DNA of 64,000 nt from positions 124,001 to 188,000 of the forward strand of contig JAKPPT010000122.1 of the NCBI GenBank assembly GCA_029547205.1, given 5' to 3'. A program made the position numbers and the translations under genes. The DNA comes from Spirochaetota bacterium. GTDB lineage: Bacteria; Spirochaetota; Spirochaetia; Treponematales; UBA12059. The notes under the pieces were generated by a model. The model had not been told where the DNA came from. It made no database searches and saw only the letters and a program-made list of their open reading frames with translations. This document shows positions 18,769 to 51,617 of this stretch, piece by piece; the first letter of the stretch is position 1; each line of letters starts with the position of its first letter.

Positions 18769-19380
18769 CTACTTTTTATGCTTTCGCTTATGCTTTTTCA
18801 TTTTAATTTGCATTGTCACATTAAAAATTACTTTTTTTGTGATTTCTTTCTGCCTAAGGGTCTGACCCTTTTGTAATTTTGATATAGCCTTCATATGCAA
18901 ATCAACTGACCAGGGGCTCATCCAGCGCGATACAAAATCAGGCGCAAATCTATAAAACGCAAGCGAACTCCATGGCCAGCTTAGTTCATTTTTAACGAGC
19001 TCTGCTTTTACTGGATTTTGATTTAGATATTCAAAACATTGTTCCACATCGTTTTGCGTTCTGAGTACACGTGAAAAATATCTATCGCCCCAGATGTGCC
19101 CAGTTCGTTTCATAGCCTTGTTATAGCGAATTGTATATGTCATCAACAGTCGCTGCATAATTTTGGGGAGTTCCATATCTAACGTGCTAATAATAAAATG
19201 TACATGATTATCCATAATCGCAAAGTGTTCGAACTTAAAACCCATCTCTGTCTGAAGTTTTTCCATAATCTCTAACATGATGCTTTTACAGAGCACTTCC
19301 TGTAGATGCAACTCTCTATTATTTATTCGTGCACTTACATGGTAAGTACCACCAGGCACGAGTTCGCGCAGTTTACGCAT
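18769..19380 (-). CDS. REP-associated tyrosine transposase (RAYT, Y1 family)
   Basis: A 203-residue protein starting at the ATG at 19380, which has a strong AAGGAGG site; upstream codons in frame look non-coding. The single-strand transposase HUH motif is HVHFI in AIMDNHVHFIIS, and the catalytic tyrosine lies in CFEYLNQNPVKAELV, the RAYT YLNPV-type helix. The start PGGTYHVSARINNRE is also typical. RAYTs mobilise or process REP palindromes and are usually single-copy domesticated elements. The reading frame runs through a GGGTCTGACCC copy (18858-18868, encoding part of KLQKGQTLRQ) into a very basic lysine/histidine tail, so the C-terminus may have been extended by the repeat. Confidence 0.88.
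   Translation of the reverse strand: MRKLRELVPGGTYHVSARINNRELHLQEVLCKSIMLEIMEKLQTEMGFKFEHFAIMDNHVHFIISTLDMELPKIMQRLLMTYTIRYNKAMKRTGHIWGDRYFSRVLRTQNDVEQCFEYLNQNPVKAELVKNELSWPWSSLAFYRFAPDFVSRWMSPWSVDLHMKAISKLQKGQTLRQKEITKKVIFNVTMQIKMKKHKRKHKK
18858..18868 (+). repeat. REP-like palindrome inside the RAYT coding region
   Basis: A third GGGTCTGACCC, followed by CTTTTGTAATTTTGATAT. It is in the last 35 codons of the transposase gene. Confidence 0.75.
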
Positions 19381-33920: not shown

Positions 33921-34182
33921 ATACATCTCCTTTCCTAACTATAGTTTTAGGTTTACTCAGTTAAATATAACGCATTGCTCAAAAAAATCAAATGAATCAT
34001 GAAACGATTATAATCCATGAGAAACATGCTCATCATTTCGGAGTTAATTTTCAGAAACAGTGTAGTGGTTATGTGCGGGAGCATCTCACGATGGAAACTA
34101 AACCATGCAATAATGCAGGTACCGATGCTGTTTATGTTACAGAATACCGTAGAAAGAACTCTCTCCATTAAATGAGGGGGTA

Positions 34183-34320
34183 GCGGGAGACCCCACAGGG
34201 CGAGTCGTCTGCATTGGTGCGGTACTGGTATTTACAAGCTTCCTGACACTAATTGAGGTATCAGAAGCGAGCAGAAAGCAAGCGCCCGAGGAGGCTCCCG
34301 CGAGGGGGAGACCTCCCCCC
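34183..34320 (+). promoter_or_regulatory. Structured, GC-rich leader upstream of the lysine operon
   Basis: Nested pairings can be drawn: GCGGGAG (34183-34189) with CTCCCGC (34295-34301), GGGCG (34198-34202) with CGCCC (34283-34287), and TCTGC (34208-34212) with GCAGA (34271-34275), plus an inner CTT.CTGA/TCAG.AAG stem. A second hairpin, GGGGGAG/CTCCCCC, follows at 34304-34319. An AAGCTT repeat lies within. It precedes kdd by about 150 bases. I see no lysine or cobalamin riboswitch consensus. The wider interval 33921-34471 holds no gene; its first 250 bases are AT-rich with nothing recognised. Whether this is a cis-regulatory RNA or a mobile palindromic repeat is open. Confidence 0.5.
34234..34254 (+). 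repeat. Dispersed AAGCTT palindromic repeat, copy 3
   Basis: ACAAGCTTCCTGACACTAATT, embedded in the loop of the structured leader. Confidence 0.5.
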
Positions 34321-34471
34321 TTGCCATTTGAGACATCACCAGATCATTTTAATAGTTAAAACCCGCATTGTGCTTGACGATATGCAAGGCTCGGTATATA
34401 AAGGAATTACTGCCCCCCGCTACCTTTGTATAAGGCAAGCCGGGAATTTTATTCCATATACAGGAGGTCTT

Positions 34472-35512
34472 ATGGCGTTAGGTTGTAAGTACGGAACGCA
34501 TCGGGTTATTGAACCCGTGGGAGCGCTCCCACAAACTGCCCAGAAACTCAACAATGATATGAGTACAATCTGGGACAATGAGATTTTGCTCGATGTTATT
34601 GCACTTAACATCGACTCTGCAAGTTTTACGCAGATTGAAGAAGAAGCCCATGGTGATGTAGACAAGATTGCTGCAAAAATCATGGAAATTGTCAGCACCC
34701 GCGGTAAACAGCAGAATCCTGTTACCGGTTCCGGTGGTATGTTTATTGGTAAGGTTGCAAAGATTGGTTCTGCATTACAGAATCGCGACCTTAAAGTTGG
34801 CGATAAGATTGCAAGCCTTGTATCGCTTTCGCTGACTCCGCTTAAGATTAACAAAATTCTTAAGGTGATGCCGGAAGTTGACCGTGTGCTCATCGATGGT
34901 CAGGCTATTCTTTTTGAAAGTGGTATCTACGCAAAGCTCCCCGATGATATGGACGAGGGTCTTGCGCTTGCTGCACTTGATGTAGCTGGAGCTCCTGCTC
35001 AGACTGCAAAGCTCGTCAAGCCGGGTGACAGGGTACTCATTCTTGGCGCTGGTGGCAAAAGCGGTATGCTCTGCTGCTATGAAGCTATGAAGCGCGTTGG
35101 TCCTACTGGCCGTGTCATTGCCAATATCCACTCTGAACGCAGCAGAAAGGCTCTCGAAGACATGCACCTTGCTCACGATATTGTCGTTGCCGATGCAACA
35201 AAACCGCTCGATGTGCTCAATGCTACTCTCAAGGCTACTGGCGGAAAAGAAGTGGATGTTGTCATTAACTGTGTCAATATCCAGGGTACGGAAATGGCAA
35301 GTATTTTGCCTGTACGCGATGACGGTATTGTGTACTTTTTCTCTATGGCAACGAGCTTTACCCGGGCAGCGCTCGGCGCAGAGGGTATCGGTAAGGACTG
35401 CCTCATGATTATTGGTAATGGCTATACCAAAGACCATGCTGAGATCACGCTCTGGGAACTTCGGGAGAATCCACAGCTCCGCAAGTATTTTGAGGAACAG
35501 TACGTAAAGTAA
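34472..35512 (+). CDS. kdd: L-erythro-3,5-diaminohexanoate dehydrogenase
   Basis: From the ATG at 34472 (CAGGAGG site) 346 residues, the usual Kdd length. Kdd oxidatively deaminates 3,5-diaminohexanoate to 5-amino-3-oxohexanoate with NAD(P)+ in lysine fermentation. The start GCKYGTHRVIEPVGALPQ is characteristic, and the Rossmann loop ILGAGGKSGML lies near residue 190. The frame is open for 73 codons further upstream but those overlap the leader hairpins and lack coding character. It is first in the operon kdd-aminotransferase-kce-kamA-kamB-kamC-amidohydrolase. Confidence 0.93.
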   Translation: MALGCKYGTHRVIEPVGALPQTAQKLNNDMSTIWDNEILLDVIALNIDSASFTQIEEEAHGDVDKIAAKIMEIVSTRGKQQNPVTGSGGMFIGKVAKIGSALQNRDLKVGDKIASLVSLSLTPLKINKILKVMPEVDRVLIDGQAILFESGIYAKLPDDMDEGLALAALDVAGAPAQTAKLVKPGDRVLILGAGGKSGMLCCYEAMKRVGPTGRVIANIHSERSRKALEDMHLAHDIVVADATKPLDVLNATLKATGGKEVDVVINCVNIQGTEMASILPVRDDGIVYFFSMATSFTRAALGAEGIGKDCLMIIGNGYTKDHAEITLWELRENPQLRKYFEEQYVK

Positions 35513-51594: not shown

Positions 51595-51617
51595 TTTACA
51601 AGCTTCGTGCTACTAAT
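51595..51617 (+). repeat. Dispersed AAGCTT palindromic repeat, copy 5
   Basis: TTTACAAGCTTCGTGCTACT followed by AAT, a divergent copy. It lies between two convergent gene ends, next to a GGCAGC inverted-repeat pair (AAGCTGCC near 51519 and GGCAGCTT near 51571). Confidence 0.5.

Follow-up and report, generated by a model that had tools for sequence, protein, structure and literature searches.

Upstream of kdd, in a lysine-fermentation operon, the window analysed here (a stretch of 64,000 nucleotides from a Spirochaetota bacterium) carries a GC-rich sequence that folds into an RNA-like structure, which raises the question of whether it controls this operon. A preliminary description had suggested either a cis-regulatory RNA of the lysine operon or a palindromic repeat of the GGGAGACCCC...GAGGAGGCTCCC kind of Bacillus-like genomes. 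The comparisons presented below indicate that the sequence is a copy of a widespread, apparently uncatalogued folded intergenic repeat family of spirochaetes and Fibrobacterota, which has look-alikes in relatives of Bacillus. The architecture first described was confirmed at the positions given for it: the nested pairings GCGGGAG/CTCCCGC, GGGCG/CGCCC and TCTGC/GCAGA (34208-34212 with 34271-34275) cover 34183 to 34301 and are followed by the GGGGGAG/CTCCCCC hairpin, while the natural limits of the element extend from the GGGGG at 34176 to the last base of the C run (34320; Table 1). Its contrast with AT-rich surroundings is also real, since GC content is 61% in the element and 38% in the remaining intergenic region. 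The plus strand has a predicted minimum free energy of -67.8 kcal/mol (z -3.29), a value reached by 0 of 200 dinucleotide shuffles; the minus strand is almost equally stable (z -2.83), so that folding energy alone cannot pick the relevant strand. The single C run is contested by two G5 runs, and in the minimum free energy fold part of it pairs with the first.

When the region around the element was compared by BLAST with the genome it comes from (2.65 Mb in 151 contigs), the GC-rich element was found a second time, on contig C63 (260368-260462), sharing both arms but having another apical stem. These are the only two copies of the folded repeat in this genome. The same search gave about 40 further matches to the apical-loop sequence TATTTACAAGCTTCCTGACACTA, which serves as terminal repeat in a MITE family of 142-144 bp that is unrelated to the folded element. 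Therefore, the window copy is one repeat holding part of another; the left end of the MITE remnant was not found in the window copy. Ends of the MITE family lie at window positions 34228-34251 and 51595-51617, its terminal repeat reads TAGTGTCAGGAA..TTCCTGACACTA, and dozens of end matches occur in the genome.

Table 1. Features of the kdd upstream region in window coordinates
Feature	Position	Strand	Remarks
Whole element, two hairpins in G5 frame	34174..34320	+	Fold, BLAST to second copy, exact family arms
First G5 run, family consensus GGGGG-TA	34176..34180	+	A1 alignment
P1 5' arm GCGGGAG	34183..34189	+	Partner 34295-34301; compensatory changes across family
ACCCCACA: P2 5' strand and 5' side of G.A-type internal loop	34190..34197	+	Family NCNCC-GCA; 34195 is A, family G
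P3 5' arm GGGCG	34198..34202	+	Partner 34283-34287
Enlarged apical region with TCTGC/GCAGA stem and GCTTC/GAAGC hairpin	34203..34282	+	Family range usually 8-36 nt
Remnant of unrelated MITE, terminal repeat TATTTACAAGCTTCCTGACACTA	34210..34251	+	84% over 43 nt to C83 copy
P3 3' arm CGCCC	34283..34287	+	Partner 34198-34202
GAGGAGG, P2 and internal loop 3' side	34288..34294	+	(Nearly) invariant in A1
P1 3' arm CTCCCGC	34295..34301	+	Partner 34183-34189
HP2 hairpin GGGGGAG-AC-CTCCCCCC	34304..34320	+	GGGGGAG 34304-34310 / CTCCCCC 34313-34319
Putative kdd promoter TTGACG-17-TATAAA, sigma-70-like	34374..34402	+	Type and position recur in five relatives
kdd, L-erythro-3,5-diaminohexanoate dehydrogenase, context gene	34472..35512	+	NF052381 266.6 bits, cut-off 200

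Relatives were searched with GAGGAGGCNNNNGCGAGGGGG, allowing up to 2 mismatches, and display the layout GGGGGTAGCG-NNN-G-NCNCCG-NAG-[variable stem]-CGAGGAGGC-TNN-GCGAGGGGG. A scan for both arms across 84,980 species genomes gave at least 119 stretches; among the 80 both-arm stretches listed, all carry the label Spirochaetota or Fibrobacterota except one from a MAG labelled only 'bacterium'. An alignment of 29 sequences (A1) was turned into a covariance model of the core (R1), which has hits in 93 of the 178 genomes surveyed from the order, representing 49 of 71 genera; a single genome gives as many as 30 hits, even though no more than 31 candidates were scored in each. Phylum-wide, 8 of 120 sampled genomes are matched, three of them outside the order, and in the Fibrobacterota sample 28 of 60 are, one genome carrying 61 copies. 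The E-values of R1 are approximate, and isolated weak hits in GC-rich genomes could be due to chance; multi-copy genomes and hits with E below 1e-6 are beyond doubt. The window copy itself scores only 15.9 bits (E 0.58), as compared to 66 bits for the second copy, because its apical insert is long; its family membership is based on the BLAST match to the second copy and from both family arms, GGGGGTAGCG and GAGGAGGC-N4-GCGAGGGGG, which are present exactly and in order. Rfam covariance search (cmscan) gave no match to the window element at the gathering score, all matches at E<=10 being chance-level, in agreement with the earlier remark that no lysine or cobalamin riboswitch consensus is apparent, and the family was likewise absent from Rfam. 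A phage or prophage link was considered and rejected when, in 2.9 million viral contigs, the full pattern was not matched at all and the Bacillus-type core was matched once.

The core of the family can be written GGGGG-TA-[GCGNNAG-NCNCC-GCAG-variable stem-CGAGGAGG-CTNNCGC]-GA-GGGGG-...-CCCCC. Covariation of the named structure in A1 scores 0.194. Shuffled alignments give 0.066 +/- 0.010, with none of 500 as high, and sliding the pairing partners lowers the value to 0.003-0.045. The commonest form of P1 is GCGGAAG/CTGGAGC, leaving a GGA/GGA purine internal loop, and fully complementary variants are found as well (GCGCCAG/CTGGCGC, GCGGCAG/CTGCCGC, GCGCAAG/CTTGCGC and, in the window, GCGGGAG/CTCCCGC). 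In six sequences the pair 13-56 is G-C instead of A-T, and the apical stem varies freely in sequence with pairing retained. The fold of the family is under selection. The preliminary description had proposed looking for compensatory changes among the leaders of kdd; there are many in the repeat family, but none of them among kdd leaders. Mismatches in the paired columns are asymmetric, with 114 purine-purine cases, 12 cases of A-C or C-A and 0 pyrimidine-pyrimidine. Since the same mismatches would be pyrimidine-pyrimidine on the opposite strand, we infer that the strand that must fold is the given (plus) one, as RNA or as single-stranded DNA.

Downstream of the first hairpin (HP1), copies continue with GA and a second G5 with its C5 partner, which form the second hairpin (HP2). 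The C5 lies within about 24 nt in 72 of 112 copies and 60-70 nt away in many others. The loop of HP2 ranges from 2 to about 300 nt. At locus L281, in a genome belonging to the family of the window organism, the C5 is about 265 nt away and the unit reaches 343 nt (predicted -218 kcal/mol), and at the orthologous site of two congeners a similar G5 frame encloses another hairpin. Many copies bear in addition an extra 5' module, GGGGCGTTGCGGGG..CCCCGCA. These variable distances, swapped hairpins and added modules indicate that loops and hairpins turn over while the frame persists, a pattern that the window copy, whose apical loop holds a MITE end, also fits. The giant rod of L281 (G007:C17, about 112000-112260) consists of the core hairpin and then a nested palindrome with GGGGGAGC/GCTCCCCC as its closing arms; this second part belongs to another repeat, of which that genome has about 25 partial copies.

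Altogether, the window feature is probably one degenerate member of a family of non-coding repeats dispersed between genes, REP/MITE-like in type, with a selected fold and moved by an enzyme acting in trans. The unit of the family consists of HP1, with its GCGNNAG/CTNNCGC core, G.A-type internal loops and interchangeable apical stem, and HP2, a G5...C5 hairpin of variable loop, both framed by G5 runs. Copies would spread passively, recognised by the enzyme through their folded single strand (RNA or single-stranded DNA). The window copy would have no role in lysine sensing, any effect on expression being incidental. In agreement with amplification inside lineages, the apical arm is homogeneous within genomes: it is identical in 31 of 34 copies of one MAG, and in 81% of within-genome pairs as compared to 10% of between-genome pairs. 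Presence also differs between congeners, since one site occupied in G144 holds about 79 bp of unrelated DNA in G184, although some other copies are common to congeners. The covariation could equally come from a host-functional structured RNA, a small RNA or a 3'-end or terminator-like element, present in multiple copies and kept for the folded RNA rather than for mobility. This alternative, unlikely but the best placed of those considered, would account for the purine-purine mismatches on one strand, the copies common to congeners and the terminator-like appearance of HP2, which is often followed by T-rich DNA. Nevertheless, copy number varies from 0 to 61 between related genomes, the homogenisation is lineage-specific, and in the window copy a U tract is lacking and no terminator was called. 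Nor do the flanking genes of 120 copies show any preferred orientation (by crude ORF calling); the only recurring neighbour families among them are common ones and duplicated loci, so that the surroundings also argue against a single cis-regulatory role.

If the unit is indeed mobilised in trans, a Y1 transposase of the RAYT (TnpA-REP) type would be the classical agent. REPs carry GTAG at the 5' foot of the hairpin, and so does this intergenic hairpin; moreover, the window's genome has five Y1_Tnp matches. Like REP, BIME and REPIN elements, the family consists of short folded intergenic repeats with many copies and lineage-specific amplification. An origin as a REP moved by a RAYT is nonetheless improbable, because 9 of 16 carrier genomes, among them the Brucepastera genome and a MAG that holds dozens of copies, lack Y1_Tnp/RAYT genes, and because no full element was found around the 12 Y1_Tnp loci inspected. 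The larger two-hairpin unit is a further difference, as is the range: REP-like repeats are usually confined to one genus or family, whereas here a sequence-and-structure core is kept over at least two phyla, probably three. With MITEs, ERIC and similar non-autonomous elements the family shares dispersal, variable copy number and the lack of genes; it differs in having neither simple terminal inverted repeats nor a visible target-site duplication. For 71 elements, whose true ends are uncertain, the longest flanking direct repeat averaged 5.39, against 5.39 after shuffling. One of the five Y1_Tnp genes (IS200/RAYT-type, 54 bits) lies in the window at 19018-19347 on the minus strand. The 1.7-Mb Spirochaetaceae MAG Pcl387_bin37 (G100) has 29 Y1_Tnp matches, many of which begin inside the profile rather than at its start; such an expansion is unusual. 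Integron attC sites were dropped as a candidate because the conserved attC boxes, judged against the attC consensus, appear to be missing from the copies. What looked like an array of seven copies in Brucepastera is a family of large genes repeated in tandem, with which the element is carried. At these loci (L062 and L063, in the Brucepastera-type genome G031), seven copies precede a repeated or truncated large gene with differing C-terminal parts, and the gene repeats resemble a tip-exchange array.

The suggestion of a Bacillus-like palindromic repeat was right in kind. When the family consensus was compared with plasmids by BLAST, repeats were found dispersed on Priestia, Peribacillus, Bacillus and Paenibacillus plasmids that contain the identical core GGGAGACCCCRCAG-stem-CGAGGAGGCTCCC. 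They share the P1/P2/P3 layout and dispersal of the spirochaete family, and differ in having the outer shell GCGAGACTCC...GGAAAGCGAG instead of the GGGGGTA...GAGGGGG frame. R1, trained without them, matches these repeats with E about 0.002, a test that is partly circular because the consensus query had picked them. A search for empty sites gave no near-identical plasmid devoid of the element. Unlinked copies, which the preliminary description had also proposed to look for, are abundant across spirochaete and Fibrobacterota genomes, but only two are found in the genome of the window. Literature searched by sequence returned no relevant repeat and, by topic, only a stem-loop survey (PMC2267715) and its forerunner. 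This survey includes, with its size and copy number, Bhal-1 of B. halodurans, an intergenic structured family that may be the same as the Bacillaceae repeats (PMC2267715). The kind of element, a structured dispersed intergenic repeat, is already known; the family defined here is absent from Rfam and from the literature searched and, unless it coincides with Bhal-1, appears to be undescribed. A broader and tentative proposal is that the motif NAG-NCNCC-GCAG-stem-CGAGGAGG-CTN, with its G.A internal loops, might have been retained in Spirochaetota, Fibrobacterota and Bacillota as the module by which a so far undescribed class of non-autonomous mobile elements is recognised; these elements would move as folded single-stranded RNA or DNA and grow by accepting repeats in their loops. 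Conservation of the core across phyla makes the question of what recognises the family directly testable.

At the level of the lysine operon, whose kce and kamA genes are recognised by curated models (kce with 374 bits, slightly under the cut-off of 382), the suggestion of a cis-regulatory RNA did not hold. A riboswitch or attenuator would be consistent with a stable fold located 152 bases upstream of the kdd start, and the element resembles lysine and cobalamin riboswitches in being an RNA-like structure near a lysine gene. Nevertheless, it has no covariance-model match and lies on the wrong side of the promoter. The putative kdd promoter is located 69 bases upstream of the gene with the folded element further upstream, so that, if this promoter is used, the element would be outside the kdd mRNA. 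Five relatives contain TTGAC(A/G)-17/18-TAT 65-107 bases ahead of kdd. A consensus promoter scanner did not list 34374-34402, because the -10 box TATAAA has no final T, which the scanner demands; the comparison with relatives carries more weight here. In addition, R1 found the element at none of 29 other loci with a kdd homologue (some partial, some second and more distant kdd paralogues), and elsewhere the family is unlinked to lysine genes, its core standing beside unrelated genes in either orientation. A regulatory RNA of this operon is thus very unlikely, and a false riboswitch lead is removed from it. A chance GC-rich palindrome, for which nothing speaks except the low R1 score of the window copy, is refuted by the exact family arms on both sides, the second genomic copy and a fold that beats 200 of 200 shuffles, and its probability is negligible. 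In the kdd 5' UTR, the nine nucleotides CCCGCTACC at 34416-34424 are the exact reverse complement of GGTAGCGGG in the element, perhaps by chance. At kdd loci of relatives (L201, L203, L210, L212, L215 and L217), in several genomes belonging to the family, a different GC-rich repeat (CGGGGACGGGGAGCCCCCGGGGCG...ACTGCCCCCGCC...) adjoins the 3' end of kdd.
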